From Calditrichota bacterium (GTDB lineage Bacteria; CLD3), in the NCBI GenBank assembly GCA_008501735.1, contig QQUF01000028.1, positions 1 through 64,000 on the forward strand: a stretch of DNA of 64,000 nt, read 5' to 3'. The notes beneath the pieces are model-generated. The model did not search any database and had not been told where the DNA came from. It saw only the letters and a program-made list of their open reading frames with translations. Below are positions 3,061 to 51,953 of this stretch, piece after piece. How positions within the stretch are numbered: position 1 is the first letter of the stretch; every line of letters begins with the position of its first letter. The translations under genes were made by a program, and so were the position numbers.

Positions 3061-3065
3061 TCGAA

Positions 3066-4289: not shown

Positions 4290-4379
4290 AGTGATTATCA
4301 ATTTAATTAAGTAACTTTGTAAAATAAAAAACTTAGATGTATTTTTGTAAAAAAACTTGAAATCTTTTTGAAATTATAA

Positions 4380-8378: not shown

Positions 8379-8382
8379 AGTT

Positions 8383-9516: not shown

Positions 9517-9519
9517 AGA

Positions 9520-13432: not shown

Positions 13433-14116
13433 ATGATAGACAAAATCTTAAAAATTAAAAATATCTCGGGCGTTCTTTTAATTCTTTTAGGTGTTTTAAT
13501 CTTAATCGATAATTTTACAAGTCTGCCATTTGAGTTAGGAAATTTTATGGGAAGTGGAATAATGCTCGCAATTGGCATTTTTCTACAACGCCTTTATGAA
13601 AATTCAAAAAATATTTACCTTACAATTCCCATCTTACTTTTTTATGCCTTAGCAATTTCGATTGCACTTAGTGGATTCTCTTTCATTCCAGAAGATGTTG
13701 TCGGAATCTTTGTTTTAGGCTCCTTAGGTTTAGCATTTTTCAGAATCGCTTACTCAGATTTAGTCAACAGGTATTACTTTATAATTCCCGGCGGAGTTAT
13801 GACTTCGATTTCAATTGTAATTTTTGCAAACTTAATCTTCCCAGAAGAAATCACTCCAGTTGTGATGTTCATTGGATTTACGATTACTTTTTGGTCTTTG
13901 TATTTTCTTTCAACAGTCAATCCCAAAATTAATGCAAATTGGGCAAAATATCCAACCCTTGTCTTCGCAGCTCTTTCTGTAATCATTTTTTTAACTTCAA
14001 TTTCAGAAGTCATTTTCCATTTGATTGTTGCTTTGGGATTAATCGGAGGTGGAATTTACTTAGTTAGAAAACACCTTGTTTCGCAACAATCCGTCAAAGA
14101 TGACGATACTTTTTAG
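13433..14116 (+). CDS. Polytopic membrane protein of unknown function
   Basis: A 227-residue protein with about eight hydrophobic segments and a short charged tail (QQSVKDDDTF). The first part, ISGVLLILLGVLILIDNF, recalls the paired short hairpins of LiaI/LiaF-type or DUF5668 membrane domains, but I cannot assign it. The stop overlaps the 3' end of ftsX by four bases in convergent orientation. The ribosome site is weak (GAGC). Likely an inner-membrane protein with small loops on both sides. Confidence 0.6.
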   Translation: MIDKILKIKNISGVLLILLGVLILIDNFTSLPFELGNFMGSGIMLAIGIFLQRLYENSKNIYLTIPILLFYALAISIALSGFSFIPEDVVGIFVLGSLGLAFFRIAYSDLVNRYYFIIPGGVMTSISIVIFANLIFPEEITPVVMFIGFTITFWSLYFLSTVNPKINANWAKYPTLVFAALSVIIFLTSISEVIFHLIVALGLIGGGIYLVRKHLVSQQSVKDDDTF

Positions 14117-14973
14117 TCTAAATACTTTAAAAATTTTTGCGTTGCAACGAAGCTACCAAAAATTCCAAGCAACAAACCAAAAGCCAAAATCAGAAAGTAA
14201 ATTTCAAAACTTACAACAAATGAAATGTTAAAAGTCTCACTTAAGTAATTCCCCGATAACCAAATCATAAAACTTGTCAAGCAAGCTCCAAGAAAGCCTT
14301 GAAAAGCTCCTTCAAGAATAAACGGAAGTAAAATGAAAGTCTTAGTTGCTCCAAGAAGTTTCATAATTTCAATATTTTTCTGACGGGCAAAAATTGAAAG
14401 ACGAATAGTATTTGTAATCAATAAAATTGCAAATACAGCAATTAAAATTCCAAGATAAAGGCTTACTTTTTCGTAATTATTTTGGAATTCTTCAATTTTT
14501 GAGACCAGAGAAAAATTAAATTCAGCGGACTCAATTCCTTGAATTTTCAAAAGTTCAGACTTAATTTCACTCACAGACTCTTCGTCAGAAAACTCAGATT
14601 TCAGAACTAAAGTAAATTCATCTTGCAAAGGATTGTAGCCAGAAATTTCTTCCAAGTCGGCATTCATTTCTTCATTCAAAATTTTTAATGCTTCTTCTTT
14701 TGGGAGGAATTTGACTTCTGCAATTCCTTCGACTTTATTAATTTGTTTTTCTAAATCTTCGATTTTCTCATTTTCAAAAGTATTTTCTACAAAAGCCTGA
14801 ATTGAAATTTTACTTTTAAGTTCCTCAATAAATTCTTCCGATTTATCATTTAAGACTAAGTAAACTCCACCTAAAAGTAAACAAGCAAAAATTGTCGAAA
14901 TACTTATTAAAGTAGAATAAATCGCCTTTTTCATTCCATCAAAGGCTTCAGAAACTAAAAATATAAAATCCAC
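14113..14973 (-). CDS. ftsX: FtsX, cell-division ABC transporter-like permease
   Basis: The 286-residue protein has the FtsX layout: one N-terminal membrane helix (residues about 15-35), an extracytoplasmic domain (about 40-165) and three C-terminal helices. Conserved pieces include IQAFVENTFENEKIEDLEKQI, ISGYNPLQDEFTLVL (the NPLP-like element) and ARQKNIEIMKLLGAT. With FtsE it forms a type VII ABC complex that transmits a cytoplasmic ATPase cycle across the membrane to regulate peptidoglycan hydrolases during division. The gene follows ftsE with no gap; its GTG start directly after the TAA implies coupled translation. Confidence 0.9.
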   Translation of the reverse strand: MDFIFLVSEAFDGMKKAIYSTLISISTIFACLLLGGVYLVLNDKSEEFIEELKSKISIQAFVENTFENEKIEDLEKQINKVEGIAEVKFLPKEEALKILNEEMNADLEEISGYNPLQDEFTLVLKSEFSDEESVSEIKSELLKIQGIESAEFNFSLVSKIEEFQNNYEKVSLYLGILIAVFAILLITNTIRLSIFARQKNIEIMKLLGATKTFILLPFILEGAFQGFLGACLTSFMIWLSGNYLSETFNISFVVSFEIYFLILAFGLLLGIFGSFVATQKFLKYLD

Positions 14974-15627
14974 TTAATCTACGATTCTTCCATTTGAAAT
15001 TTGAATATTCGTATAATTTTTGTTTTCCTCAATCAACTTTTTCTTGTGAGTTGCCATCAAAATTGCTGTTCCACGAAGATTTATTTTTTTCAAGATTCGC
15101 ATAATTTCTTTTTCAGACTCAAAGTCAAGATTTCCCGTTGGCTCGTCAGCTAATAAAATGTAAGGTTCACTTACGACAGCTCTTGCAATTGCTACTTTTT
15201 GCTTTTCTCCTGCGGACAAATTTTCGCATTTTTTGTAAGCGTGATGCATCAAACCAACTTCACTTAACATTTTCAAAGTTTTCATTTTAACTTGTTTTCT
15301 TGGAACTTCATTTACTCTAAGCCCTAAAGCAACATTTTCAAAAACATTTTTTTCTTCTAGCAATTTAAAGTCATAGAAAATAACACCAACTTTCCTTCTG
15401 ATAAAAGGTAAGTCCAATTTATTAAAGGAATCCGAAGTAAAATCAGCAACTCTTACAGTTCCCAAATCTGGCAATTTCTGAAAAGCAATTGTCTTCAAAA
15501 TTGTGCTTTTACCTGCTCCACTCTCTCCTGATAGAAAAAGAAAATCACCTTTTAAAATTTTCAGATTTACGCCAAAGACACCCGAATTTTTTTCGTATTC
15601 GATTGTAACATTTTTTAATTCTACCAT
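14974..15627 (-). CDS. ftsE: FtsE, ATPase of the FtsEX division complex
   Basis: A 217-residue ABC ATPase. Walker A is GESGAGKST, the signature is LSAGEKQKVAIARA (Ala and Lys in place of the common LSGGEQQR), Walker B is ILLADEPTGNLD, and the switch histidine is in MATHKKKL. The ATG at 15627 is chosen over an upstream in-frame TTG at 15642: it begins MVELKNVTIEYEKN as in the family and has AGG eight bases before it. Immediate linkage to ftsX fixes the identity, as LolD and MacB relatives look similar. The start lies inside the 3' end of the UbiA-like gene, so the three genes form one transcription unit. Confidence 0.9.
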   Translation of the reverse strand: MVELKNVTIEYEKNSGVFGVNLKILKGDFLFLSGESGAGKSTILKTIAFQKLPDLGTVRVADFTSDSFNKLDLPFIRRKVGVIFYDFKLLEEKNVFENVALGLRVNEVPRKQVKMKTLKMLSEVGLMHHAYKKCENLSAGEKQKVAIARAVVSEPYILLADEPTGNLDFESEKEIMRILKKINLRGTAILMATHKKKLIEENKNYTNIQISNGRIVD

Positions 15628-16472
15628 ACTTTGCCTAACCAAATTGAAAAAATTACAAAAAGCATATCGAGTTTCATCATTCTTTGCATTTTACTAAAGT
15701 CTAATTTTGCATTTTTTAATAAATCTAAAATCCATTTTGCTAAAACTAAATCAACAGTAATAAAGATTGAAATCAAATATATTTTTGAGTAAGAATTTAA
15801 GAAATAAGGTAAAAAGCTAAATAAAATTATAAGAGATAAAATCAAAGCAATTATTTTTTGTGCTGTTTGTATTGAATATTTTTTCGGAACAGTCTGACGT
15901 TTCCCAATAGAATCCCCTTCCAAGTCCTCAAGGTCTTTCAAAATCTCTCTTGCTAAATTAAATAAGAAAGCAAAAATAGCTGGAATCGTCGAAAATTGAA
16001 TTACTCCTATTAAAGTAACTTCACCCAAAATGAAACTACTTCCAGTCAAAATCCCAATTGCCAAATTTCCAACTAAGAACTTTTTTTTGAGCCACTTACT
16101 GTAAAAGAATAAAAGTATTGTACTAAATCCAATAAGCAGCTTTGCATAAAATTCTGATAAAAGAAAGCTCATAGCAATTCCTGAAAATGCTAATATAACA
16201 GCCCAGATTAATGCTTCATTTTGAGAAATTAAATTTCGTGGTAAAATTCTTAAAGGGCGATTAATTTTATCAATTTCTAAATCGCAAAAATCATTCCAAA
16301 CATAACCTGCTGCTGCAACTAAAATTAGAGAAATTGTAGCTAAAAGCAATTGCGAATTTCCCAACAAAAGTTTGTTGAAATTTGTAGTTGTCATTCCGCC
16401 AAACCAGACACAGAAACCAATAAAAATCAAATTTAAAGGTCGAATAATTTTCAAAAAATGGGTTAGTTTCAA
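15621..16472 (-). CDS. UbiA-family prenyltransferase, (di)geranylgeranylglyceryl-phosphate synthase-like
   Basis: A 283-residue membrane enzyme with about eight or nine helices and the two Asp-rich motifs of UbiA prenyltransferases: NDFCDLEIDKINRPLR near residue 61 and LKDLEDLEGDSIGKRQTVP in the middle. The NRPLR-x-LP pattern resembles digeranylgeranylglyceryl-phosphate synthases, the archaeal-lipid branch that is also present in many FCB-group bacteria. It would transfer a prenyl chain onto an acceptor in the membrane. The start is TTG with AGAGG five bases upstream; no ATG is available. It overlaps ftsE by seven bases. A menaquinone-type MenA or a chlorophyll-synthase relative is less likely but not excluded. 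Confidence 0.75.
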   Translation of the reverse strand: MKLTHFLKIIRPLNLIFIGFCVWFGGMTTTNFNKLLLGNSQLLLATISLILVAAAGYVWNDFCDLEIDKINRPLRILPRNLISQNEALIWAVILAFSGIAMSFLLSEFYAKLLIGFSTILLFFYSKWLKKKFLVGNLAIGILTGSSFILGEVTLIGVIQFSTIPAIFAFLFNLAREILKDLEDLEGDSIGKRQTVPKKYSIQTAQKIIALILSLIILFSFLPYFLNSYSKIYLISIFITVDLVLAKWILDLLKNAKLDFSKMQRMMKLDMLFVIFSIWLGKVW

Positions 16473-16483
16473 CTTAACCTCTA

Positions 16484-16524
16484 ACTAAAAAAAAAGCCCT
16501 TTCTATTACTCAAGAAAGGGCTTT
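16484..16524 (-). terminator. Rho-independent terminator of the motor cluster
   Basis: A perfect 12-base stem, AAAGCCCTTTCT (16493-16504) with AGAAAGGGCTTT (16513-16524), encloses an eight-base loop. On the minus strand it is followed by a run of nine T (A-run 16487-16495). It lies just after the stop of the AgmX-like gene and ends the long leftward cluster. Confidence 0.88.
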
Positions 16525-16546: not shown

Positions 16547-17668
16547 TTATTGGAAAATGTAAGTTCTTTCAACAGAAACGGCACCAGAGCCTGAATCAAT
16601 TTCTTCAAATTTCCATTTCTTTACATTTCTTAAGATACAAGATTCAACTTTGCGATTTCGCATACTACTTGATTTAATTCTTGCACCTTTTACTCTACCA
16701 CTTTCGATTATATCAAAAACGATTGAGATTTTTCCTTTAAGTTTTGGATTCACTCTTTTTTCAGTTTCGTAACAGAACTGAACAGCTGCTTGGTAACTAT
16801 TCATTACTGAAGCAATTGCATTTGGGTTTCTATAAGCATTCTTAGCAGCTTTACCTTTGACTCTAGGTGGTTTCAAGTTTCCGATTTTACCTGACCCTTT
16901 TAATGAACCAGCAGCAGTTCCGCCACCAATTCCTTTTCCACCACCAGCTCCGCCACCAAGTGCTCCTAAACCACCAGCTCCACCAAGTGTTCCTCCGCCA
17001 CCGCCGAGAGAACTTGAACCGCTTCCACTTTTTACACCGCCAACTTGACTTAAGACTGCATCAAGTCCACCACCAGCTCCTCCAGCTGCACCAGCTGATA
17101 ATCCACCAGCAGAAGCTGCTCCTCCATAACCACCGCCTTTTCCGACAAGTTCTTTAAAGACACCAACTCCAGCAGCAGCTTCAGCAGCTGCACTACTTGC
17201 AGCAGCAGACGCAGCTGCACGTTGACTTGCTAAACGTTGTTTACGTCTTTCTTGTACTTGTTCAGCAGTTGGTCCAGATTGTTCATTGGCTGCAACTTCT
17301 TGTTCTGATTCAGTTGCTTCTTCTTCACCAGCTTCTTCTTCACCTGTTCCTTCGTCAATTCCAGCAGCTTCTTCAGGTTCCTCTTCAAGAACTTCTGCTG
17401 GTTCAATGTCAAGAACTGTTTCTGTGTATTGAGCCAACAAATCTTCATAATCATCTAAAGAGACCTCAGGAGGACCAATAGTTGATAACCAACCTGTAAT
17501 TGGCATAAAAATTAGAAATAGAATAATAAAAATCAGAATAAAACCTTTATCAAATCTATCACCAAATGTCAACTGAAATTCTTTTGGAAATTGTCCAACA
17601 GCTGCAGCTGAAAATGATGAGGAGTTTGAAGTTTTAACTTCGGATTTTAAAATTTTAGTAATAAACAT
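16547..17668 (-). CDS. AgmX/PglI C-terminal (TonB-like) trans-envelope protein
   Basis: A 373-residue protein in four parts: a 40-residue cytoplasmic head, one membrane helix (FILIFIILFLIFMPITGWL), an acidic then Ala/Gly-rich low-complexity periplasmic stretch from about residue 70 to 265, and a folded C-terminal domain. That domain, with SYQAAVQFCYETEKRVNPKLKG, SIVFDIIESGRVKGARI, SSMRNRKVESCILRNVKKW and two cysteines, is the AgmX/PglI C-terminal family. This is a TonB-like fold found in the Myxococcus gliding protein AgmX/GltJ. With the adjacent ExbB/ExbD-like proteins it probably carries proton-motive energy across the periplasm. A good AGGA ribosome site precedes the ATG. The low-complexity linker is probably the flexible reach across the periplasm. 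Confidence 0.82.
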   Translation of the reverse strand: MFITKILKSEVKTSNSSSFSAAAVGQFPKEFQLTFGDRFDKGFILIFIILFLIFMPITGWLSTIGPPEVSLDDYEDLLAQYTETVLDIEPAEVLEEEPEEAAGIDEGTGEEEAGEEEATESEQEVAANEQSGPTAEQVQERRKQRLASQRAAASAAASSAAAEAAAGVGVFKELVGKGGGYGGAASAGGLSAGAAGGAGGGLDAVLSQVGGVKSGSGSSSLGGGGGTLGGAGGLGALGGGAGGGKGIGGGTAAGSLKGSGKIGNLKPPRVKGKAAKNAYRNPNAIASVMNSYQAAVQFCYETEKRVNPKLKGKISIVFDIIESGRVKGARIKSSSMRNRKVESCILRNVKKWKFEEIDSGSGAVSVERTYIFQ

Positions 17669-17700
17669 TTTATTTTCCTGGCGTTTTATAGAGATTAACT

Positions 17701-18222
17701 CTATTCGTTTCTAATAACCAATAACCGTTGACGACTGTATTCTGCTTGAGCTGAAGTAAAAAGAACTTTTAACAAAGAATCATAATTGACATCTTTATCA
17801 ACCTGAATAGTAACTTCGCCTTTAAAAGGTCTTCCTGTGCTTTGCTCAACTTTCTTTTGTAACTCAGCTTGTTTTTCAAGAAATGTATATAATTTATCAA
17901 TCATCAATTGATCACTGCTATGTACTTCGCTCATTAAAACTACTGGTTTATCGTCAATGAGAATTGCATTTCTAGAAATTGATAAACTCATACTTCTTTC
18001 AGCTTTAATATCTGTATCTGAAATTGCCAATTGCAAATCTTTTGAAGCAGAAACAATGCTTCCTTCAGTAGAAAATGATTTCAGGAGAAACAAAAGAATA
18101 ATTGTCATCGCATCCATCATTGATGTTAATGGTGGAAGCCCTGGCTCAGATTTATTTTTTGAAAAATTTCTTCTCTTAGTTGCTCCACGTTCAAGGCTCG
18201 CACTCGCTGTTTTTGCTGCCAT
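17701..18222 (-). CDS. ExbD/TolR-family motor subunit with the conserved Asp
   Basis: A 173-residue protein with a basic N-terminus, one membrane helix (PPLTSMMDAMTIILLFLLKS) and a periplasmic domain (GEVTIQVDKDVNYDSLLKVL). Asp37, at the start of the helix, is in the place of the proton-carrying aspartate of ExbD, TolR and MotB. It would pair with the ExbB/TolQ-like product at 18785 as the ion-driven rotor or plug. The gene has an AGAGGA ribosome site and lies 15 bases after the second ExbD-like gene, which has Asn at the equivalent site. The ISRNAILIDDKPV segment is typical of the periplasmic TolR-type fold. Confidence 0.88.
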   Translation of the reverse strand: MAAKTASASLERGATKRRNFSKNKSEPGLPPLTSMMDAMTIILLFLLKSFSTEGSIVSASKDLQLAISDTDIKAERSMSLSISRNAILIDDKPVVLMSEVHSSDQLMIDKLYTFLEKQAELQKKVEQSTGRPFKGEVTIQVDKDVNYDSLLKVLFTSAQAEYSRQRLLVIRNE

Positions 18223-18237
18223 AAATTTTCCTCTAAA

Positions 18238-18774
18238 TTATAATCGACCGAAGTTCACTTGTGGAAACATAACAATAGTCTTTCCATTAACTTTTGTAGA
18301 TCTAGCATTATCCATAGTCGTTACTAAAGTTTGAAAAGCTATTGAGCTATCTGCAGCAATCTTTATAGACTTACCATCTTTAAACTTACTGCCATACTTT
18401 TCCGAAATATCTGCAAGTTGGGTATGTAATGACTCAAAATCATATTCACCATTTTTTAATGGGATTGTTGGACCACCGTCCGAAGCAGAATCTTTGATTA
18501 CAACAAAATCATTTGCTAAAGTAAAACCATTTTTAGTAACAAATAATTTAAGTCCTAACTTTTGCTCTACTTCTTGAGGAGTTTCTTCTGAACTTGATCC
18601 ACCTCCACCACCGCTTGTCGGGAGATCGATTTCAAGCATTCCAATCTTGATAAATTCGGCAGCTGATAAGAGAACTGGAATCAATACTACCATAAGATTC
18701 ATCATAGGTAGTAGATTTGGTTCTGAATTACCAGACTGTGTTTTTTTTGTAGAACTCGACGCTAAATAAGGCAT
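18238..18774 (-). CDS. ExbD/TolR-family subunit lacking the membrane Asp (Asn26)
   Basis: A 178-residue ExbD/TolR-like protein. Its membrane helix PNLLPMMNLMVVLIPVLLS aligns without gaps to that of the neighbouring subunit, but the proton-carrying Asp is Asn26 and a proline follows within the helix. The periplasmic part has GLKLFVTKNGFTLANDFVVI and SIKIAADSSIAFQTLVTTMD, the usual TolR/ExbD fold, with a Gly/Ser-rich insertion (TSGGGGGSSSEE) after the helix. It has a strong AAGGAG ribosome site and lies ten bases after the ExbB-like gene. It may serve as an unequal partner in a mixed ExbD dimer inside the ExbB pentamer; this is inference. Confidence 0.86.
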   Translation of the reverse strand: MPYLASSSTKKTQSGNSEPNLLPMMNLMVVLIPVLLSAAEFIKIGMLEIDLPTSGGGGGSSSEETPQEVEQKLGLKLFVTKNGFTLANDFVVIKDSASDGGPTIPLKNGEYDFESLHTQLADISEKYGSKFKDGKSIKIAADSSIAFQTLVTTMDNARSTKVNGKTIVMFPQVNFGRL

Positions 18775-18784
18775 TAATTACTCC

Positions 18785-19435
18785 TTACTCTCCAGTCAGA
18801 AGGTTAACTAATTTCAAAATATTTTCGTCGATATCTTCGATAATCTGACCAGTTTTATTAATGATAATTTGGTGGATGATGATTGCAGGAATCGCAACAG
18901 CCAAACCAAAAAGTGTTGTATTCATCGCAATTGCAATACCTTGAGCAAGCAATTGTGTTTTTTGAGATTGTTCCACCAATGGATTCGCAACAGCCTCAAA
19001 AGATTTAATCAAACCATAGATAGTTCCCATAAGTCCGATAAGAGTAGAAACATTACCTACCATTTGAAGTAAGTTAGTTCTTCTATTAAGTTTTGGGAGA
19101 ATTGCAAGAGTTCCTTCATCTACCGCATTTTGGATAGAGCGAAAATTCTTGTCTTCTTTAGCTCTTTCCAAAGCAGCTAAAACTACGATTGGCAAAGCTT
19201 TTTCACCAGCACTCTTGCAAAGGTTTATAGCTTTTTGAATGTCCCCAGATTTTACAAGCTTCATAACTTCAGCCATAAATCTTTCGGCATTAACGTTTGA
19301 CCTAACATAAATATAGATGTATCTGTCAATGGCGATTGCAAGCATAAAAACTAGTGCTATAAGTAATGCCCACATATAAATCATACCATCACTGTCAGGT
19401 GCGAAACCGTTTGCGAACTTTAAAAGAAAATCCAT
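18785..19435 (-). CDS. ExbB/TolQ/MotA-family proton channel subunit
   Basis: A 216-residue protein with three membrane segments: near residue 20-40, and the paired C-terminal helices STLIGLMGTIYGLIKSF and LAQGIAIAMNTTLFGLAVAIPAI. The latter pair is the most conserved signature of the MotA/TolQ/ExbB family and carries the Thr residues facing the channel. A cytoplasmic domain lies between (KSGDIQKAINLCKSAGE...LAALERAKEDKN). It forms the stator ring around the two ExbD-like subunits encoded just downstream. AAGGAG precedes the start. A gene set of one ExbB, two ExbD and one AgmX recalls AglR-AglQ-AglS and AgmX of Myxococcus. Confidence 0.92.
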   Translation of the reverse strand: MDFLLKFANGFAPDSDGMIYMWALLIALVFMLAIAIDRYIYIYVRSNVNAERFMAEVMKLVKSGDIQKAINLCKSAGEKALPIVVLAALERAKEDKNFRSIQNAVDEGTLAILPKLNRRTNLLQMVGNVSTLIGLMGTIYGLIKSFEAVANPLVEQSQKTQLLAQGIAIAMNTTLFGLAVAIPAIIIHQIIINKTGQIIEDIDENILKLVNLLTGE

Positions 19436-19487
19436 TTACTAATTCTCCTTTGGAATTGTTTTTTTAATTTAATTTTTAATTATTTAA

Positions 19488-19805
19488 TTAATTTCTAATT
19501 TTTTTAGACATATGTTCAATATCACTATTACTAATTTTCTTCGCAGATAATTCCCGTTTTTTTGGTAAAAATAAATCTACTTCAATTTCACCTGCTTTTT
19601 GAAGGAAATCACTTGCTTTTACTTCAAGTAAATTAAAATCTGCTTCTTTTCTTTCTTGGTAGAGTACAACGCTTGGTTCAATCGGAGCTACTTGAATCAC
19701 GATCTCATCAATTCGTATCACCCCGTCTGAATCTTGAGCAAAAACGTTAGTTGAATTTACGACAATTAGGAAGATAAATTGAAACAATAATATAGTTTTT
19801 TTCAT
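19488..19805 (-). CDS. Small secreted protein of the motor cluster, unknown function
   Basis: A 105-residue protein with a signal peptide (MKKTILLFQFIFLIVVNSTNVFAQ) and a mature part of about 80 residues: GVIRIDEIVIQVAPIEPSVV, FNLLEVKASDFLQKAGE and a basic C-terminus. Of two ATG codons six bases apart, the second (19805) is eight bases after AAGGA and is preferred. I recognise no family. It lies eleven bases after the giant TPR gene and 52 before the ExbB-like gene, so it is probably a periplasmic accessory of the same complex. Confidence 0.68.
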   Translation of the reverse strand: MKKTILLFQFIFLIVVNSTNVFAQDSDGVIRIDEIVIQVAPIEPSVVLYQERKEADFNLLEVKASDFLQKAGEIEVDLFLPKKRELSAKKISNSDIEHMSKKIRN

Positions 19806-19816
19806 TTTCATTTTCC

Positions 19817-22800
19817 TTATTCAGGTAATCTGTTTTTATCGAAAATTAAGTTTCTTCGAATCATTACTTTTTCTTGCTCTGGCGTTAAAGCCTCTGCTCC
19901 AGATTCAACTTCTGCTCCAGATTCAATCTGAGCTTCAATTTGTTCAGTTGAAACATCAGGAATAGTTTTCACTTCTAAAATCATTTGAAAACCGTGTCCT
20001 GTAGAATCTAAATCTGTAACAACAGCTGATAAGATATTCTCTCCTGAAATAACTGATTGAGTGACATCAATTTCTTCAACAAACATCCAATCAACAATAT
20101 CCTCTCCTGTTTCTTCATCGTATTTTTCATATCTATCATAACGTCCTCTTGGACCGTTAAAAAATATTGAAGTGTTGTCGTCACCTGTTACAAAAACTTT
20201 TGCCGAAGTTACGACTCCTTCAACGTAGAATTTTTTCCTAAAATAAACGGCATTTTCAAAACTTTCTTCACCTTCTGCCACTGTTTCAATTTCAACGAAG
20301 GAAGTATCATAAACCGTAAAAGATGTATCAATGTAACTTGCAACTGAGTCAAAAACTGTTACAATACTTTCTGCAAATTCTAATCTGTATTTTCTACCAT
20401 CAGTCGATAAGAACTCACCTTCTGCAAGTTCTACGTCACCTTCAACAGGAACGAAAGTTGTATCAAAAACTGCAAAAGAAGTATCAACTGTAACCTGTAT
20501 TGAATCTGTTACTGTTATCAATTGCTCAGAAATTGCTAATTGATAAAATCGTCCATCTTCAGTTGAATAAACATCTTCAGCAAGCGAATCTGCTTCGGAT
20601 AGCCAAAGAGTGTCTGTAACCAACGAAAGCGAATCTTTTTCTTCTAATTGCCACACTGTTAAAGTCGTATCTACAAATCTTTCGGTAATTTGTGGTTCAA
20701 AACTTTCTGTTCCTTCTCCACTTTCTTCAACCCAAACAGTATCAGCAACAGACATCAAAGTATCTTTTTCTTCTAATTGCCACACTGTTAAAATTGTGTC
20801 AACAAATCTTTCATTAATTACTGTCTCAAACCCACCATTACCTGTAATTATTTTTTTCCAAATATTAGTCGTTCCACTCCATAGGTCAGTTGATAATGTC
20901 AAAAGTTCTTTATCGGGAAAAACTAAATCTTGAGACCAATCTGCTCCACTTACTGCTGATGTCCAACTGTAATCATCAAAATCTAAAGATGAATATCCCT
21001 CTGCAAATTTATTGAAAATTTTCCAATCGCCAGAGAGGTCTGTCTCAACGATCATTGTATTTTCTTCAACATCAACTAAATCTTTAAATTCTGAAGGGGA
21101 AATATTAATTAGTTCTTTAATAATTTTACCTGTATAAGTATTCAAAGCTAAATTATTGTCTTGATTTAAGTTATAAGTAGACTCAAGCACATTCCGAGCC
21201 AAATCTTTAACTTGAATTTGCCAGTCTCCAAAATTAATTGAAGCATCAGACCACTCTGGAAAATCATTTTCAAAATATTTACCTTCAGTGTATTTGACTT
21301 GAGATTTGTAATATCTACCAAATTCTTCAAGTTGAACTCCAAGTTCATAAGCATACTTGTTCATTTCTTCTTCCATTTCACGAGCACTCGAAGAAGTAAG
21401 TCCATTTTCATTAAAAATTGTGTATGCGTATTGGTAACTTTCTAAAGCTAATGAGTAATTGTTTTGAATTAGCGTCAAATAAATTGGAATATAAACAGGA
21501 ACCTCAAAAACACCTTTAGGAACATTCTCTTCGCTAACACCATTCAAACTCGTTTCATAAAGTTCAACTTCTTTCTTAACTTCAAGAATAATCTCGTTCG
21601 CTAAGTCAAAATATTCTTTCGGAGAAATTCTTGCAACTTCAATAATTCTATCACGAGATTTTTGATTCCACTCATTTTGAATTTCTAAAGAATCCAAAGT
21701 AGATAAGTTTAGTAAATGCAGCCCAATAACTTGGTCAGATACAGCTCTTATTCCGAAATTCTGCTCTGGAGTGTAGATATAAGCATCTTTTCCAGAAACA
21801 TAACTAATGTATTTATTTCTTTTTCTACTCGATTCAAATTGTTTAACGACATCTTCATATTTTAACAATGTTTCGATTGTTCCATAATTAACTTCTGCTG
21901 TTTGATAAAGCATTCCTGGAAGTCTATCTTCAATCTGTGCTACAAAATTATTCGCATCCACAATTGCCGAATCAATGATTCCAATAGCTTTCATTTGTTC
22001 AGTCGAAGTTGAATCAATAGCTGACATTTGAGTTTCTCTTGATTCTTGATATTGTGGTACTAAATCCTTTAAAATCGTAAGTGTTGATTTATAGTTTTGA
22101 ACTGAAGCATCAAAGAATACAAAAGATTCATTTGAAATAGAAACTTTTTTGGCAGCATAATTTGAAATATTTTCAGGGATTGCTTGTTCAGAGAATTTTA
22201 GTGCAAAATCATCTTGGATTAATGCAATTCCATAAGCTGCTTTTGGTCTTCTACGAATACTTAAAGTATAGAGGTAATTATATTTTTCATTCAACTCGTC
22301 TCTAAGTTCAATCTTTCTACGAATATCAGAATCAACTAAATTTGGATCTTGAAAATCTAATTGCAAGTATTCACTTAGCTCTTTCTCTGTAATTTCATAA
22401 AGAGCTTCACCAGCATAAAATGGATTTCCTGGTAAATTTCTTGATTCTAATTCTTTATTTCTATCAACGGCATTTTGAAATTCGATGAATGCTTGCTGTT
22501 CGTCAAATTTTTGTTCTCTAAAATAAATACCTCTGTCATAATAAACTTTAACTGTCAAAGGGTCATCTGGAAATTGAATTGCAAATGCTTCATAGATTTC
22601 ATTCGCCGCATCGAAATCATTGAGTTTTAAGAAAAATTCTGCATTTCCAAATAAAATAGGATTTGCTCTTTCATCATTAGGATAAGCTTGGACAAACTGA
22701 TTACTTACCCGAATAGCGTCGTCATACTTTTCAGCTTTCTCGTAGTTTGCTCTCGCTTCAATTAAGAAATCTGGAGTTTTCTCATCATCAGGATATTTAT

Positions 22801-25453
22801 TACAATATGCTTCATAAGTTTCGGCACTTAAAACTGATTCTTCCAATCTGTTTGCGTAAATGTAAGCCTTGTTTTGGTAAGCTGTTTTTGTGTTATCATC
22901 TTCTGGATAATTATTTATCAAAATATCATAAGTATCGACAACTTTAAAATAAAGTGAATCAGCACGAGTTTCGAGCGAATCTTTTTCCGATGCTTCTGCT
23001 GCTAAACGATATTTTTCAGCAGCGTTAAGAATGATAATTCCTATTTTGTCGTATTCAGGAAAATCTTCAACTGTTACAAGAAGTTTTTCTGCAGCAGAGA
23101 CATAATTTGAATCAACTCTTGAGTTTTCAACATTTGCATTTACAAGTCTTCCAAGTACGTCAGATTTTTCCTCATCACTTAAAACATTTTCAGCAACCAA
23201 TGCTCTAATTTTATCTCCTGCAATTCCAAATTGCCCAAGCCTGTAATAGCTTTCAATTATATTTTTCTTTGCTGGAATTACATTTGAATCGTAAGGGTGT
23301 TCTAAAATTAACTCATCAAATTTGGCAATTGCTTTTTCATACTCATTTCTGTTATAGAAAAGTAAACCTGAGTTCCATACTAATTTTGGAAGCAATGTGT
23401 CCCCTGGGAAATAAGCAACCAAAGTATCAACCGCACTTAAGAAATCTATTTCCTCCACTAACAAAGGCTCTGGAATATAGACTGGTATTTTAAGGCTATC
23501 AGTTTCTGTTGAATCATTTTCTGCAATTAAACTTGTCGTATCAGGAGGTGAAAGAGAGGTATGGCTTTTTTGGGCTAATTCCATTAATTCCTGCGAATAA
23601 GCAACAGCATCAATCGTAGCCAAATAACGCAAAGAATCTGTCGGGAAGAATCTATATTTTTCTGTATCAAGGTCTTCGATAGATGAATAGTATTTTATAT
23701 CTTCATAATTTTGAAACTTTCCAGCCATCACAACCAAAGTATCAAAAGCTGTTTTCTTTTCACCAAGAGTATTAAGGGTTACACCCATAAACTGTTGAAA
23801 AAGAGGTCCTCGATAACCATCTGGATAACCTGCGAAATAATCTGTAATTGCTTGAATAAGAAATCTCTCATCATCTTCTGAAACATTTTCTTCATCTTTT
23901 GAAACTAAATCAGCAGCAGCTGCAACATTCTCGGCAAGTAATTGTTCAGCAACTTTTCTTCTTTCAGCTCTAATTTCAGGATCTTCAGAATCTTTATAAC
24001 GAATTACCCAAGGAGCATTCTCATTAACATATTTTGCGAAGTAGTCTTTTTTTGCTGCATAAAGTGCTTGATTATCAACTGGGTCTTTTGAAGATTCAAG
24101 AACAATTATGTTTCGCTGAACTTTAGGGGCTTGTTCAAAAAACGGATAATATTCTAATAAATAAGTATAAGAAGTTGAGGCTTCAATTTGAAACCCTTGA
24201 CCAGCTTTTTGATACTCATCACCAATTCTCAGGAAGACATCTGCACCATAAGATTTCCACTCATTTTCATTCTGTGTATTTTTAGCAGTTTCTAAAAACT
24301 CCTTTACACCGTCAGGACCTTTAAATGCGAATTCATTAACATAGTTTGTTCCTGAAATTCTCGTTGAATCATTTGTAAAACTAATTGCTAAATAAGTCAA
24401 AGCATCATCGTAAAAATCATTTGTTGTTACAGAAAGTTTCCTATCACGAGAAACTCTGTCTGGGTAATCTTTGTATTCATTAACATCGTCTAAAAGGATT
24501 GTGAAATAGCCAACAGCTTCTGGCAACTCACGTAATTTGTAATGAGCCCAACCAAGTCTATAAAGTGCTTCAACGTATCTTCTTGAATCTCTGAATTCCA
24601 AAACATTTTCGTAGTAACTAATTGATTGCCTAACTCGATTTTCAATATCTTCTGCTGTCAAGTTCTCGAATGAATCTGGAATTTCAAAATAGTAATTACC
24701 TAAAGCCATCAACGCTTCGATATAATAATCACTTTCCTTGATTGGCAATATTTTTTTGTAATAATCTCTTCCTCTGTCTTTGGAATCAACAAGCGTTGTA
24801 AGATATGCTAAATTGTAATATGCCTTGTCAATATTCTTGCTTTTGGGAAATTCGCGTTCAAATTTTTTCAAAAGTTCAATCGATTTATCGTAACGTTCCT
24901 TTGGAAAAGGTGCATCAAAATTTGGATCTTCATTCAAACGATTCATATACTCTTCACGTCGTTTGAAATTATCATCTTTTTCTTTTTGAATGTAGAGTTC
25001 CGCAAGTCGAATCAAAATATCTTCGCGATAAATTGTGTTCGGATTCTCTTTCCAAAATTTCTCAAGGTTTGTAATTGAAGTCGTTTTTAAAGTATCTTTT
25101 GCGATACGAAGTTCTTCCATTTCTTGAGCTAATTTAACTTTAAGTCTCAAAAGTTTTTTCAAACTTAAACTATCAAGCTTAGTCATTGGCTCTTGAGGCT
25201 CTTCCATAACAACTTCTTGTGAAAAGTCACTACTTTCGACTTCCTCTGAGACACCCTGAGATTGGTTTACAACATCATCACCAGAAGTATCTAAATCTAC
25301 TTCTTCTACAACTTCTTGAAGTGAATTTTCATTTGAAAGAATTGAAGTAGAGTCTTGTTCAACAACCTCATCTTGCGAATAAGCAATATTTTGAACACCG
25401 ATAAAGGCACTAAAAAGAAATGCCCAAAAGAATTTTAAAAATATATTTTTCAT
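19817..25453 (-). CDS. Giant periplasmic TPR protein with a C-terminal galactose-binding-like domain
   Basis: A 1878-residue secreted protein. After a signal peptide (FLFSAFIGVQNIAYSQ) and an acidic region comes a very long array of TPR and TPR-like helices, for example DKAYYNLAYLTTL, VEALYRLGWAHYKLRELPEAVGYF and LFYNRNEYEKAIAKFDELILEHPYD. Near the end, LDFDDYSWTSA and, much later, YFRKKFYVEG, TSAKVFVTGDDNTSIFFNGP and GENILSAVV look like the halves of a galactose-binding-like beta-sandwich, split by about 200 residues of duplicated sequence. Large secreted TPR proteins of this type occur in Myxococcus gliding (Glt) and related clusters. No Shine-Dalgarno is visible and the gene starts 14 bases after the preceding stop, so translation is probably coupled. 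Likely a periplasmic scaffold. Confidence 0.82.
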   Translation of the reverse strand: MKNIFLKFFWAFLFSAFIGVQNIAYSQDEVVEQDSTSILSNENSLQEVVEEVDLDTSGDDVVNQSQGVSEEVESSDFSQEVVMEEPQEPMTKLDSLSLKKLLRLKVKLAQEMEELRIAKDTLKTTSITNLEKFWKENPNTIYREDILIRLAELYIQKEKDDNFKRREEYMNRLNEDPNFDAPFPKERYDKSIELLKKFEREFPKSKNIDKAYYNLAYLTTLVDSKDRGRDYYKKILPIKESDYYIEALMALGNYYFEIPDSFENLTAEDIENRVRQSISYYENVLEFRDSRRYVEALYRLGWAHYKLRELPEAVGYFTILLDDVNEYKDYPDRVSRDRKLSVTTNDFYDDALTYLAISFTNDSTRISGTNYVNEFAFKGPDGVKEFLETAKNTQNENEWKSYGADVFLRIGDEYQKAGQGFQIEASTSYTYLLEYYPFFEQAPKVQRNIIVLESSKDPVDNQALYAAKKDYFAKYVNENAPWVIRYKDSEDPEIRAERRKVAEQLLAENVAAAADLVSKDEENVSEDDERFLIQAITDYFAGYPDGYRGPLFQQFMGVTLNTLGEKKTAFDTLVVMAGKFQNYEDIKYYSSIEDLDTEKYRFFPTDSLRYLATIDAVAYSQELMELAQKSHTSLSPPDTTSLIAENDSTETDSLKIPVYIPEPLLVEEIDFLSAVDTLVAYFPGDTLLPKLVWNSGLLFYNRNEYEKAIAKFDELILEHPYDSNVIPAKKNIIESYYRLGQFGIAGDKIRALVAENVLSDEEKSDVLGRLVNANVENSRVDSNYVSAAEKLLVTVEDFPEYDKIGIIILNAAEKYRLAAEASEKDSLETRADSLYFKVVDTYDILINNYPEDDNTKTAYQNKAYIYANRLEESVLSAETYEAYCNKYPDDEKTPDFLIEARANYEKAEKYDDAIRVSNQFVQAYPNDERANPILFGNAEFFLKLNDFDAANEIYEAFAIQFPDDPLTVKVYYDRGIYFREQKFDEQQAFIEFQNAVDRNKELESRNLPGNPFYAGEALYEITEKELSEYLQLDFQDPNLVDSDIRRKIELRDELNEKYNYLYTLSIRRRPKAAYGIALIQDDFALKFSEQAIPENISNYAAKKVSISNESFVFFDASVQNYKSTLTILKDLVPQYQESRETQMSAIDSTSTEQMKAIGIIDSAIVDANNFVAQIEDRLPGMLYQTAEVNYGTIETLLKYEDVVKQFESSRKRNKYISYVSGKDAYIYTPEQNFGIRAVSDQVIGLHLLNLSTLDSLEIQNEWNQKSRDRIIEVARISPKEYFDLANEIILEVKKEVELYETSLNGVSEENVPKGVFEVPVYIPIYLTLIQNNYSLALESYQYAYTIFNENGLTSSSAREMEEEMNKYAYELGVQLEEFGRYYKSQVKYTEGKYFENDFPEWSDASINFGDWQIQVKDLARNVLESTYNLNQDNNLALNTYTGKIIKELINISPSEFKDLVDVEENTMIVETDLSGDWKIFNKFAEGYSSLDFDDYSWTSAVSGADWSQDLVFPDKELLTLSTDLWSGTTNIWKKIITGNGGFETVINERFVDTILTVWQLEEKDTLMSVADTVWVEESGEGTESFEPQITERFVDTTLTVWQLEEKDSLSLVTDTLWLSEADSLAEDVYSTEDGRFYQLAISEQLITVTDSIQVTVDTSFAVFDTTFVPVEGDVELAEGEFLSTDGRKYRLEFAESIVTVFDSVASYIDTSFTVYDTSFVEIETVAEGEESFENAVYFRKKFYVEGVVTSAKVFVTGDDNTSIFFNGPRGRYDRYEKYDEETGEDIVDWMFVEEIDVTQSVISGENILSAVVTDLDSTGHGFQMILEVKTIPDVSTEQIEAQIESGAEVESGAEALTPEQEKVMIRRNLIFDKNRLPE
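20633..20792. repeat. Tandem duplication (129-base period) inside the giant TPR gene
   Basis: A 31-base stretch is identical at 20633-20663 and 20762-20792, exactly 129 bases (43 codons) apart, and flanking sequence is also similar. Both copies encode FVDTxLTVWQLEEKDxL. A second, more diverged pair lies to its left (about 20290-20420 and 20430-20560), both encoding DGRxYxL...DTSFxVxDTxFV. The identity at DNA level suggests a recent or homogenised duplication. Confidence 0.85.
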
Positions 25454-25467
25454 TTATTATTGCAAAT

Positions 25468-28158
25468 TTATTCTTCTGTGTTGTTTGACTCGTCAGAATT
25501 TTCTTCTGTATTTTCTGTTTCAGAATTTTCAAGAGGTTTTTCTTCTTCAACCACCTCTTCTTCATTAGCCATATTTTCAGGCTCTTCAACTTCATTTGAA
25601 TTTATCGTTTCTGATGAATTCTTTTCAATATTTACTTCATTAATATTTTCTTCTGATGAAGATTCAAGTTCACCATTAGAAGGCACAACTATTTCACTTT
25701 CACCTTGTAAGACATCAAAATCTTTATATTTAGAATTTGCTCTAATTTCATCTACTTCAGGGACTTCAACACCATTATCCTTGAGAACCAAATCAATTTT
25801 GGCCATTTCAGACTCTAGTTCAGCCATTCTAGCAACCAATGCATCTTCATCTTTTGGTACCATCAACTCCTCAAGAACTTGTTCAAGAATTACTATCTCA
25901 TCTTCTCGGTTTTCATTGTAGAAGAAATGTTCAAAATCCGAGCCAGCAAGTTTTGCTTTTGCATAATTCCCCCAGTTACTCATTCCTAAATAATCATCTT
26001 TTTTAATTGAAATATTTTCGTATTCAACTAATGCACTTGATAATTTCAATTTTTCATCAAGCATCTCAATTCTATCTTGATTATTTAAAGCCATTGCAAA
26101 GCTATTCAAATCCCTTACTGATTTTTTCTCTGCCTCAGCAAAAAAAGTTGATTGTCTTTGATAAGATTCAAATACCTCGTCTCTTTTAGACTGTAACTTA
26201 GCAATTTTAGCTTCTTTCTGTTTTGCTTCAGAACGCCTTAAGTTAAGGCTCGATTCAACTGACTTAAGTTCAGATTCTTTCTGAATTCGCAAATCACGAA
26301 CTTCACCTTGAGCGACAGGGTCCGCTTGCTCAGCACTTAACAAGACTCTTTCTTTCTCACTAAGCATTAGAAGAGCATCAGTAACTCTTACTACTTCCAT
26401 ACTATCCGAAAGGATACCTAATGCATCTTGTCCAAGACTTACGACTTCACTATTTATATCTTTTTCAATTTGGACATAAATCCCATAAATTTCATCTCTT
26501 TTTTGACGGGCATTTTTAGCATTAGCATCAGATTTATCAAACTTCTTATCAGTTTCTTTTAGGACTAACCCATTCTTCTGAGCGACTATTTTGACTTTTC
26601 TTTCCTCTTTGATAATTTCATTTTCAAAATAGTTTGATAATTTCTTATTTAAGTCATTTTTAATTTCAAGAGTAAGAGCAGGAAATTTTTTATATATCCT
26701 TAAATAGTTTTTTGTTATTTGTTTTTTAAGATTACCAATATTTCTCAACTGACTTGCTAAAGAATCTGCAAATGCAAAATCATTTTCTGCAATAACTTTT
26801 GGCAGATTAGCCTTTAAGTCAATTCCTATTTCAGTAAGTTTAATGTATTCAGAGTTTAACTCTTTGGCTTCTTCCAAGTTCAAGAAAGCATCAAAAACAT
26901 ACTCAAAAGCTTCCGTTTGCTGATTTGGCCATTCTATCAATTGCTTATGAAAATTCAATAAAGAAAGAATTTCATAAGTTTTATTAGAACCTGAGTATTC
27001 CTTCAAAACCACTTCACCAAGTTCAATCACTTTTGGTGAATCTTGAATAAAATGGGCACACCACATTTGAGTAGTCAAGACCTCGTCATACTTACCAAAA
27101 TCTTTATCAACAGTCATCAGAATTGAATCTGATAAAACAAACTGATTCTGCCCAATTGCAATTTGAGCCAATTTAACTTTAGAGTATTCCTTCAAAAATG
27201 AATTTAGTGGGTTCTCAAGACTTGCCAAATAAGTAAAATGACCAATAGAATCATCAACTTTCCCTTGAAGCAAACTTAATTGCCCCTGAATAAACTTAGA
27301 GTTTTCATATTCTTTAGAATCAAGAGGTACTTTACTAACACTATTAATAGACTTTAAATTATTACCTTTTTTATTCTCAACAATACCTAAGTAAATACTT
27401 GATGTTCCATTCTGACTAGATGAATTTGCTAGATCGGTTAATTTTCTTGAATCAACAGAAGCTAAATAAAGGAGGGAAAGTTTTTCAATAGCTATATTTT
27501 TATCGTTTTCATCTAAAGCCAGTTTAAGGACTTCTTCATAAGACGAAATCGCTTTAGGGTAATTCTTGAGTTCAAAGTAGGATTCAGCTATCAAGAACTT
27601 AACATCTGCAACATCTTTGAAAGGATAATCTTCTACTAAGAATTCAAACCCTTGAACAGCGGCATCATACTTCTTAGCTTTATAAAGTTTTGCAAAGCTC
27701 GTTAAGTCCCTTGAAAACATTTTTTGAATTTGGGAGGAAGAGGAAGAAGATAAGATTCTCTTTCTAATTTCTAGAATTCGCTCATATGCCAATCTGACCT
27801 TCGCCTTACGCAGAAAGAATAATTCTTGCGATAAACTACCCAAAGTAAGAGGAACAGATTCCAACTTAATACTTTCGTAAGAATCCAATTTATCAATTTC
27901 ACCCCAATAAGCTAATGCCTCTGGAGTTGAAAGTTTCTCTGAAAGTCTTGATTTAATTTCACGTGTAGTATTTCGGTATAAAACCGAAATAAACATTTGT
28001 GTGCCCGAAAGTTCAGACTCAGCAACAGCATTTTGACTAGCAATGTAATTTTCGATATTGCTAACTTGCTCACACGAAGCAAAATTAGCAATAGAGACAA
28101 AAAAGACAAAGCAGGCTAACACAAAATATTTTTGAATTAGTTTTAAACTCTTATCCAT
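25468..28158 (-). CDS. Secreted TPR/coiled-coil protein with an acidic tail
   Basis: An 896-residue protein. The N-terminus has a hydrophobic signal followed by ANFASCEQ, which could be a weak lipobox, making it a possible lipoprotein. TPR-like helices fill residues about 140-480 (KKYDAAVQGFEFLVEDYPF, KNYPKAISSYEEVLKLA). A charged helical region follows (LRRSEAKQKEAKIAKLQSKRDEVFESYQRQ is part of a long coiled coil), and the last 60 residues are almost purely Glu, Asn and Ser. The ATG at 28158 is favoured over a GTG at 28173 because it starts directly before the signal peptide. It is followed after 14 bases by the giant TPR gene, so the two probably act together in the periplasm. Confidence 0.78.
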   Translation of the reverse strand: MDKSLKLIQKYFVLACFVFFVSIANFASCEQVSNIENYIASQNAVAESELSGTQMFISVLYRNTTREIKSRLSEKLSTPEALAYWGEIDKLDSYESIKLESVPLTLGSLSQELFFLRKAKVRLAYERILEIRKRILSSSSSSQIQKMFSRDLTSFAKLYKAKKYDAAVQGFEFLVEDYPFKDVADVKFLIAESYFELKNYPKAISSYEEVLKLALDENDKNIAIEKLSLLYLASVDSRKLTDLANSSSQNGTSSIYLGIVENKKGNNLKSINSVSKVPLDSKEYENSKFIQGQLSLLQGKVDDSIGHFTYLASLENPLNSFLKEYSKVKLAQIAIGQNQFVLSDSILMTVDKDFGKYDEVLTTQMWCAHFIQDSPKVIELGEVVLKEYSGSNKTYEILSLLNFHKQLIEWPNQQTEAFEYVFDAFLNLEEAKELNSEYIKLTEIGIDLKANLPKVIAENDFAFADSLASQLRNIGNLKKQITKNYLRIYKKFPALTLEIKNDLNKKLSNYFENEIIKEERKVKIVAQKNGLVLKETDKKFDKSDANAKNARQKRDEIYGIYVQIEKDINSEVVSLGQDALGILSDSMEVVRVTDALLMLSEKERVLLSAEQADPVAQGEVRDLRIQKESELKSVESSLNLRRSEAKQKEAKIAKLQSKRDEVFESYQRQSTFFAEAEKKSVRDLNSFAMALNNQDRIEMLDEKLKLSSALVEYENISIKKDDYLGMSNWGNYAKAKLAGSDFEHFFYNENREDEIVILEQVLEELMVPKDEDALVARMAELESEMAKIDLVLKDNGVEVPEVDEIRANSKYKDFDVLQGESEIVVPSNGELESSSEENINEVNIEKNSSETINSNEVEEPENMANEEEVVEEEKPLENSETENTEENSDESNNTEE

Positions 28159-28185
28159 AAGAGAGATGCTCACTAAAATATTTTA

Positions 28186-29274
28186 CTATTTTTTATTTTT
28201 TTCTTGGAGCAACCTTTTAAGTTCTTCAAGTTCTTTTTCAGCTTTGATTCTTTCTTTACGAATCACTTCGAGTTCTGCCTCAGTTTCACTTATATCTTCA
28301 TCTTTGATAATTTTTTCAATAAGTTGCTCGGAATCAATATATCTAGTCTTACCTCCATAAGAAGGACCAGAAGATATTTCCATACCTAAATTAATCTTCA
28401 ATGCAGGGTAAGTATCAAAAGTTTGAGATGCAGTAGTAAATTCTTTATCTTCACCAATCAGAACACGATAATCAACATTCAAGAAAAATTTTAACCAGTC
28501 ATTAGAGACAAATTCAATGCGAGGAGAGATATAACCGTAACTACCTCTTTGCACTGAAACCCCTCCATAAGTATCTTTAGGTGGAAGTTCAATATAATAA
28601 CTCCCATAATATTCTATCCCAACAGCCCATTTCCTACTAATAAAATAATTAAACCCTATAGAATAAAAAAGTTCCTCAGTACTAACCCCGCCATTCACAC
28701 CACCATCATTATGATTGACATAATTAAGATTAACGTGCAGTTTTGGAGAATTAGGTATATCGTTAGGATCAACATTCCACGTCCCAGCAAATGCTAACTG
28801 ACCACCATAAGCGTCTGCCGCATATGGTTCAAAAACGACATTTTGCACGACTCCAGTTGTAGCCTTTAAGGCAAACCCAACAGAGTAATCAAATTTACCT
28901 TCAGACAACCCTTTAAATGAGTATTTAACACCTACTTGAGTATCACCTGGCAAGTTATAATCATCTTCTAAACGACTAGAAGGTCTTGTCGAAAAATTTA
29001 GATCTTGATAAAAAGTTGGAACAATCGATACTTGCCAATTATCAGTTATACCGTAATCGAAAAGCCATCTACCCATAACGTATGTGTAATCGTTTCCAGC
29101 ATCATAGCCTCTTAGATCCATTCCAAAAGTAAATACTCCATCGTCCAAAGTTCGAGCCGATTGAACATTTCTCATATTGTATGAGCCTACATAATCAACT
29201 TCAGCCGCATTCAGTACACTTAAAGAAGTTAGAGATGCACCAACGAATACAAGCAGTTTCTTAAAGGTGTGCAT
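28186..29274 (-). CDS. Outer-membrane beta-barrel with a C-terminal coiled-coil tail
   Basis: A 362-residue protein with a signal peptide (LLVFVGASLTSLSVLNAA) and about 280 residues of alternating beta strands (LFDYGITDNWQVSIVPTFYQ, GFNYFISRKWAVGIEYYGSY, YGYISPRIEFVSNDWLKFFL) that fit an outer-membrane barrel. Unlike ordinary barrels it does not end in an aromatic strand: about 60 residues follow, finishing in a charged helix (AELEVIRKERIKAEKELEEL). This tail probably projects into the periplasm. It is the first gene of the motor cluster with a good AAGGAG site. Similar secreted barrels (GltA/GltB) belong to the Myxococcus gliding complex, but direct homology is not shown here. Confidence 0.75.
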   Translation of the reverse strand: MHTFKKLLVFVGASLTSLSVLNAAEVDYVGSYNMRNVQSARTLDDGVFTFGMDLRGYDAGNDYTYVMGRWLFDYGITDNWQVSIVPTFYQDLNFSTRPSSRLEDDYNLPGDTQVGVKYSFKGLSEGKFDYSVGFALKATTGVVQNVVFEPYAADAYGGQLAFAGTWNVDPNDIPNSPKLHVNLNYVNHNDGGVNGGVSTEELFYSIGFNYFISRKWAVGIEYYGSYYIELPPKDTYGGVSVQRGSYGYISPRIEFVSNDWLKFFLNVDYRVLIGEDKEFTTASQTFDTYPALKINLGMEISSGPSYGGKTRYIDSEQLIEKIIKDEDISETEAELEVIRKERIKAEKELEELKRLLQEKNKK

Positions 29275-51900: not shown

Positions 51901-51953
51901 CTTTAATTCCCTAAAGTTTATGTTAATGTTAATTTTATTCATTTCATTAATTC

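Follow-up and report, generated by a model that had tools for sequence, protein, structure and literature searches.

An Asp-less and an Asp-bearing ExbD subunit are paired in an FCB operon resembling the Agl/Glt/Nfs core complex

The 64,000-nt stretch of DNA analysed here (hereafter the window; positions 1 to 64,000 of contig QQUF01000028.1, assembly GCA_008501735.1, from a Calditrichota bacterium) carries an eight-gene operon on its minus strand, which raises the question of what envelope machine is encoded and how that machine is driven. An earlier note, made from the sequence alone, had proposed a proton-driven trans-envelope device built from an outer-membrane barrel, two large secreted tetratricopeptide repeat (TPR) proteins, a small secreted protein, an ExbB/TolQ channel, two ExbD/TolR subunits and a protein with an AgmX-like C-terminus. 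The open reading frames (ORFs), the matches to PF01618, PF02472 and TPR families, and a model of the barrel agree with eight consecutive leftward genes encoding these parts. Judged by sequence homology, the operon is a version of the Agl/Glt/Nfs core complex from the Fibrobacteres-Chlorobi-Bacteroidetes (FCB) group and shares ancestry with the gliding motor core of Myxococcus, with the AgmX-like protein in the place of the transducer GltG. ExbB/ExbD proteins use the proton gradient, and the most unusual feature of the operon, unremarked in the earlier note, is that one of its two ExbD subunits lacks the aspartate (Asp), the presumed proton carrier, at the essential transmembrane (TM) site, a state that recurs in numerous bacterial phyla. 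The operon and its motor genes are as follows.

16547-29274, minus strand: eight-gene operon, all eight ORFs found in place
18238-18774, minus strand: ExbD1, 178 amino acids (aa), Asn26 at the essential TM Asp site and Pro33 at +7 (PF02472, E = 7e-13)
18697-18699, minus strand: codon AAT of ExbD1 Asn26, read directly from the sequence
17701-18222, minus strand: ExbD2, 173 aa, Asp kept (Asp37, GAT at 18112-18114; PF02472, E = 5e-9)
18785-19435, minus strand: ExbB/TolQ-type channel subunit, 216 aa (PF01618, E = 1e-23; TolQ and ExbB models)

The TM stretch of ExbD1 reads PMM[N]LMVVLIP, in which Asn26 is placed by a phmmer alignment opposite the essential Asp of solved TolR, and that of ExbD2 reads TSMM[D]AMTIILLF. 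The same pairing was followed through 118 ExbB-linked ExbD pairs gathered via ExbB peptide patterns, a set that includes some near-identical records. The first ExbD carries Asn in 67 pairs, Ser in 10, Gly in 1, Ala in 1 and Asp in 39, while the second carries Asp in 117 of 118, the exception being a locus (L113) with swapped gene order. Exactly one member is Asp-less in 80/118 pairs, and both are in 0/118. Pro at +7 is present in 79/79 Asp-less first ExbDs and in 1/39 Asp-bearing ones. At L113, and also at L256, the order looks swapped, with the Asp-bearing gene before the Asp-less one.

Because this first set was selected and partly redundant, a second, unselected sample was counted. It comprised 290 genomes domain-wide, 92 of which had an ExbB match at E<=1e-40, and 60 further loci were taken from it. 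Among ExbD sets linked to a GltG gene, 33/34 have Asn, Ser, Gly or Thr in place of the Asp of an ExbD, and 1/34 is Asp/Asp; among pairs with no GltG gene in reach, 9/13 are Asp/Asp and 4/13 Asn/Asp. Several Bdellovibrionota-type loci are likewise Asp/Asp. Two candidate loci (L173 and L174) were considered as Myxococcus AglRQS, and were not used as AglQ/AglS given that their Asp positions mismatch D28. No description of an Asp-less ExbD subunit was found in the open-licence literature, coverage of which is incomplete, and the point is therefore likely, though not certain, to be new.

The state of ExbB is associated with that of its ExbD partners, strongly so by count. Ile169 occupies the site in the window ExbB where the Glu of the third TM helix (TM3) would be expected. 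When all 216 ExbB columns were ranked blind against ExbD state, position 169 came first, and with duplicates removed Glu is found there in 0/111 Asp-less systems against 38/48 Asp/Asp systems. The E. coli counterpart of this position is presumably Glu176. The five-residue spacing from position 169 to Thr174 equals that from Glu176 to Thr181 in E. coli, where Thr181 is a pore residue (PMC12215075). The pore residues Thr138 and Thr174 of the window ExbB are invariant in 175 relatives, and a proton path is therefore still expected. Mapped onto a tree of ExbB sequences, the presence of an Asp-less ExbD calls for 7 changes of state, compared with 32 in shuffled data.

Four Fibrobacterota loci (L085, L088, L089 and L090) encode a second ExbB that continues in frame into the Asp-less ExbD1, a fusion protein of ~430 aa (for example L085:10769-12079) that is preceded by a separate ExbB and followed by an Asp-bearing ExbD. 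In L089 and L090, direct reading showed that the junction has no nearby Met from which ExbD1 could be translated separately, hence the fusion is likely real. The stand-alone ExbB upstream of the fusion has a conserved ~40-aa C-terminal extension.

These observations bear on whether ExbD1 belongs to the drive at all. In the chief rival reading, ExbD2 homodimers would power a Glt-type core in the usual manner, and ExbD1, no longer requiring Asp, would serve outside the pore as an accessory, for instance as a plug or as an anchor to peptidoglycan. The drift of its TM site, where Asn, Ser, Gly, Ala and Thr are tolerated while the Asp of ExbD2 is kept throughout, is what this alternative would predict. 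Pro at +7 is nevertheless nearly invariant in the Asp-less ExbD1s, which indicates that the helix is under constraint; the ExbBs of Asp-less systems also lack the TM3 Glu; and the Fibrobacterota fusions place the Asp-less ExbD in the ring complex. The accessory role is accordingly regarded as rather unlikely.

The gene at the end of the operon encodes the protein on which such a motor would act.

16547-17668, minus strand: GltG-type energy transducer, 373 aa (NF033768; C-terminal match to NF033760)
16553-16828, minus strand: AgmX/TonB-like C-terminal domain, transducer residues 281-372 (NF033768)

The transducer consists of a short N-terminus, one TM helix (~residues 43-61), a long linker that is first Glu-rich and then Gly/Ala-rich, and the AgmX/TonB-like end. 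The C-terminus scored 87.5 bits against NF033768, the AgmX/PglI C-terminal domain, for which the cut-off is 40, so that the AgmX-like family assignment made in the earlier note was borne out. Its suggested counterpart, AgmX/GltJ, was rejected in favour of GltG, which fits better: the C-terminal part reached 87 bits against NF033760 (GltG), under the full-length cut-off of 650, versus 24 bits for GltJ. Family scans and alignment with FHA-bearing relatives detected no FHA domain in the window transducer. Relatives with the GltG architecture of FHA domain, TM helix and AgmX end align to it, and their genes take up the corresponding place in this kind of operon.

TonB_C also matches the transducer C-terminus, weakly, and tol-pal YbgF-type TPR models match proteins of the operon. 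Together with the Vibrio TonB2 operon, which carries the 425-aa TPR protein TtpD2 (PMC6957404), these likenesses would suit a TonB/Tol-type importer or envelope-integrity system with extra TPR parts. Against that stand the GltD and AgmX/GltG signatures, which are specific, and the immediate surroundings of the operon, in which the gene map shows neither a TonB-dependent receptor nor a TolB or Pal gene. The host genome also has further ExbB loci, one of them a separate ExbB-ExbD-ExbD-TonB set adjoining an S41 peptidase, in which both ExbDs carry Asp. A system of this type is thus improbable, and a Tol-Pal or TonB variant was rejected on gene content, the AgmX-type C-terminus and the separate TonB set, the tandem ExbD genes also setting the operon apart from Tol-Pal. 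The earlier note had staked its idea of a distinct machine on the gene order not being a standard Tol-Pal variant and on the AgmX-like C-terminus matching its family; given the family match and the separate TonB set, the idea stands on both counts. In genome G000, a lone ExbB-type gene that retains the TM3 Glu (G000:C17:55595-55933, locus L047) lies beside a NAD-binding protein and a WYL regulator, and no ExbD was seen adjoining it.

Upstream of the motor genes lie the genes for three secreted proteins.

19488-19811, minus strand: small secreted protein, 107 aa (hidden Markov model (HMM) built in this analysis)
19817-25453, minus strand: large secreted TPR protein, 1878 aa (TPR family matches)
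22082-25195, minus strand: GltD-type region, large TPR protein residues 87-1124 (profile-profile match)
19952-20260, minus strand: galactose-binding-like jelly-roll, large TPR protein ~residues 1732-1834 (AlphaFold2 (AF2), Foldseek, HMM)
25468-28173, minus strand: mid-size secreted TPR protein, 901 aa (TPR family matches)

Deltaproteobacterial versions of the operon have three TPR genes, the first matched by the GltC model and the third by the GltE model; one of them, L092, shares the motor and GltG and has genes matched by both models. Since no GltD model match was obtained, the GltD set was defined by position between the GltC- and GltE-model matches. The large TPR protein aligns collinearly, by its residues 87-1124, with residues 67-1132 of that set (E = 7e-107, score 967, against ~80-170 for TPR-only comparisons). 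The mid-size protein resembles the GltC-position set over residues 127-429 (profile-profile E = 5e-31, score 266, TPR-only ~85-170); only its N-terminal half aligns, and the GltC model itself gave no match. A fusion of GltD and GltE, prompted by the lengths, was rejected as an explanation of the large protein, of which the GltD part alone aligns while the GltE set stays at TPR background. The operon contains no GltE gene and neither TPR protein matches GltE above TPR background, the rest of the genome not having been searched.

The large TPR protein has ~750 extra C-terminal residues that end in the jelly-roll. This domain was modelled by AF2 with a predicted local distance difference test (pLDDT) score of mostly 80-94, and Foldseek related it to sugar-binding-type domains of alpha-L-rhamnosidase (E = 3e-4); an HMM match of the protein is to the same type of domain, and the jelly-roll is kept in the FCB set. 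A full-length relative, 54% identical, is encoded by genome G001. Window 20000-20900 (~residues 1550-1720) contains an insert in which two near-repeats each occur as a pair: one is ERFVDTxLTVWQLEEKDxL, the other a unit of 35 residues with xDTSFxVxDTxFV at its end. The relatives aligned over the C-terminus are without this insert. The small secreted protein, for which Pfam and NCBIfam scans gave no match, was found by the custom HMM in the same slot of many loci, always between the TPR genes and ExbB.

The first gene of the operon encodes the outer-membrane component.

28186-29274, minus strand: outer-membrane beta-barrel, 362 aa, with signal peptide (AF2, Foldseek)
28372-29133, minus strand: barrel strands, n=12, residues 48-301 (AF2)
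28198-28344, minus strand: C-terminal helix of ~49 residues (311-359), expected in the periplasm (AF2)

The protein matched no Pfam family. An AF2 model from an alignment of eight sequences (mean pLDDT 66) has 12 strands followed by the long C-terminal helix, and its best Foldseek matches are the outer-membrane barrels FapF and COG4313 (E = 6e-9). Homologues with a coiled-coil tail are encoded in KSB1, Latescibacterota and other loci, mostly directly upstream of the TPR genes.

What is established, namely which parts are present, what they are homologous to, how the genes are ordered and that an Asp-less ExbD is paired with an Asp-bearing one, can be set against known systems. Luciano et al. 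reported in 2011 homologues of gltC, gltD, gltE and gltG together with aglR, aglQ and aglS in one region (PMC3169522). This core complex is known outside the Myxococcales, Fibrobacter included, is present in non-gliders too, and was called ancestral, its function being unknown at the time; Geobacter is listed there among its bearers. The window operon is like it in having, within one region, an ExbB/TolQ, two ExbD/TolR, a GltG-type transducer, a GltD-type TPR protein and a second TPR protein that resembles GltC in part, and these likenesses uphold the Agl/Glt-like parts list of the earlier note. It differs in the absence of GltE and of FHA on the GltG-type protein, in the ~750-aa GltD-type extension with its jelly-roll, in the barrel with a coiled-coil tail and in the Asp-less ExbD1, the Asp state of the 2011 core being unreported in the part available. 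Because GltE and an FHA-bearing GltG were looked for and not found, the operon is not a strict member of the core complex. The description of the machine as undescribed consequently applies in part only; overall, the observation behind the earlier note is confirmed and its interpretation partly supported.

In Myxococcus xanthus, the Agl-Glt and Agl-Nfs machines share with the operon a TolQR-type motor, a TonB-like transducer (GltG/NfsG), and TPR and barrel parts. There AglR binds GltG and movement of Glt/Nfs is driven by proton flow (PMC3169522, PMC3858216). Wartel et al. described rotation of the Nfs complex and spore glycan strands by the Agl motor, which AglQ D28N stops (PMC3858216), and a conserved Asp has been described in both AglQ and AglS (PMC9389320). 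In contrast to the window, both of these subunits are Asp-bearing, the parts are spread over several loci, and many extra Glt parts are present. The E. coli ExbB-ExbD-TonB and TolQ-TolR-TolA systems share the motor families, with ExbB T148/T181 equivalent to T138/T174 of the window, but have homodimeric ExbD/TolR with two Asp, another C-terminal subfamily and no large TPR scaffold. ExbD1, with Asn26, departs from the 5:2 ExbB:ExbD stator with its homodimeric two-Asp B subunit, in which each ExbD has the TM Asp. Vibrio TonB2 (TtpB2/C2/D2) likewise combines an ExbB/ExbD/TonB motor with a TPR protein in its operon, yet serves siderophore uptake and has one ExbD, no GltD-type protein and no such barrel.

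Glt-type parts joined to a motor, with large TPR and barrel components, could also be taken for a true surface-gliding motor functionally equivalent to Agl-Glt. Homologues of the later, gliding-specific GltI, GltJ and GltK were, however, not seen within the operon, the core complex occurs in non-gliders as noted above, and SprA of the type IX secretion system (T9SS), which the host genome encodes, can serve gliding by another route. Gliding is therefore a very improbable function. The operon was also rejected as a T9SS motor, as its products are ExbB/ExbD-family proteins and none of them matched a T9SS model, though the host has SprA.

On balance, we lean towards a Glt-type core machine with an ExbD1/ExbD2 heterodimer, a single-Asp drive, a GltG arm, and TPR and barrel components. 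An inner-membrane ExbB ring would hold two unlike ExbD subunits, of which only ExbD2 would support proton flow, since the proton site of ExbD1 lacks an acidic residue. This motor would act on the GltG-type transducer, whose single TM helix, long flexible linker and TonB/AgmX-like end would span the periplasm, and the transducer would pull or move the GltD- and GltC-type scaffolds, which in turn would be connected to the barrel of 12 strands by way of the coiled-coil tail that it extends into the periplasm. Such a machine would most likely move or position a cargo of the envelope or surface in a directed manner, perhaps a glycan, as with Nfs in Myxococcus spores, and the jelly-roll may contact glycan. 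The 1:1 stoichiometry of the heterodimer in the pore, the single-Asp drive, the physical contacts and the cargo are what we infer. The more specific proposal of an asymmetric proton motor, in which five ExbB would surround one Asp-bearing and one Asp-less ExbD with protons passing at one site, is tentative and given somewhat less than an even chance.

Several points weigh against this reading. Asp/Asp pairs are the rule among the Myxococcales ExbB loci found. An independent-pairs test of ExbB Glu against ExbD Asp yielded 3 well-supported contrasts, 8 at most, too few to prove a joint change. ExbD1 might not sit in the pore; the Ser-x3-His motif of TonB/TolA is missing from the TM of the window transducer; the operon differs from the complete known set, being without GltE and FHA; and the suggested link to glycan cargo comes from fold similarity only.

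If true, the asymmetric motor would be incompatible, in this branch, with a strict alternating 36-degree mechanism that uses two Asp. The Fibrobacterota fusion, if uncut, would tie one axle helix to the ring, and an ExbD covalently joined in this way would be an obstacle to unlimited rotation, making a back-and-forth or limited-stroke pull on the GltG-type arm more likely. A widespread machine with one Asp-less ExbD, ring-fused in one phylum, constitutes a natural experiment on how such motors work. It also brings many uncultured FCB phyla into the range of the Glt-type core, whose function has so far been known from Myxococcus alone.

The eight genes lie on one strand with gaps of 5-52 bp, and are closed by the following element.

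16493-16524, minus strand: intrinsic terminator, 12-bp stem and T run

This is the sole such site across the region and corresponds to the strong terminator of the earlier note. The synteny comparison proposed there was run and revealed the core order TPR-TPR-small-ExbB-ExbD-ExbD-GltG also in loci of Calditrichota, KSB1, LCP-89, Zixibacteria, Latescibacterota, Fibrobacterota and deltaproteobacterial phyla; since it is kept across so many phyla, the grouping is more than chance. The FCB-like host is likewise supported by RpoB, which shares 75% identity with its counterpart in a same-family genome and is nearest otherwise to candidate division KSB1/Calditrichota genomes (60-63%).

FtsX-, FtsE- and UbiA-like genes lie directly downstream at window 14113-16472, and in the same-family genome (L035) the operon is trailed by genes of matching lengths. 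In another Calditrichota locus (L059, 176-16014) it is flanked by ATP synthase beta/epsilon genes on one side and an aspartyl-tRNA synthetase-type gene and a LysM protein on the other, a setting that gene lengths suggest for other Calditrichota loci. A surface polysaccharide locus ~6 kb from the operon (window 1930-10443) contains glycosyltransferases, a polymerase-like membrane protein, a flippase-like protein and a sugar epimerase. T9SS cargo-like tails, NYPNPFNPxT...KML(L/F)LK, end several secreted proteins (33520-35832, 38859-40658, 47023-48273 and 48985-51942). By eye, window 57813-62894 encodes a 1693-aa protein with Ser/Thr kinase, ATPase, GAF and sigma-54 activator-like parts, and the gene after it is adenylate-cyclase-like.

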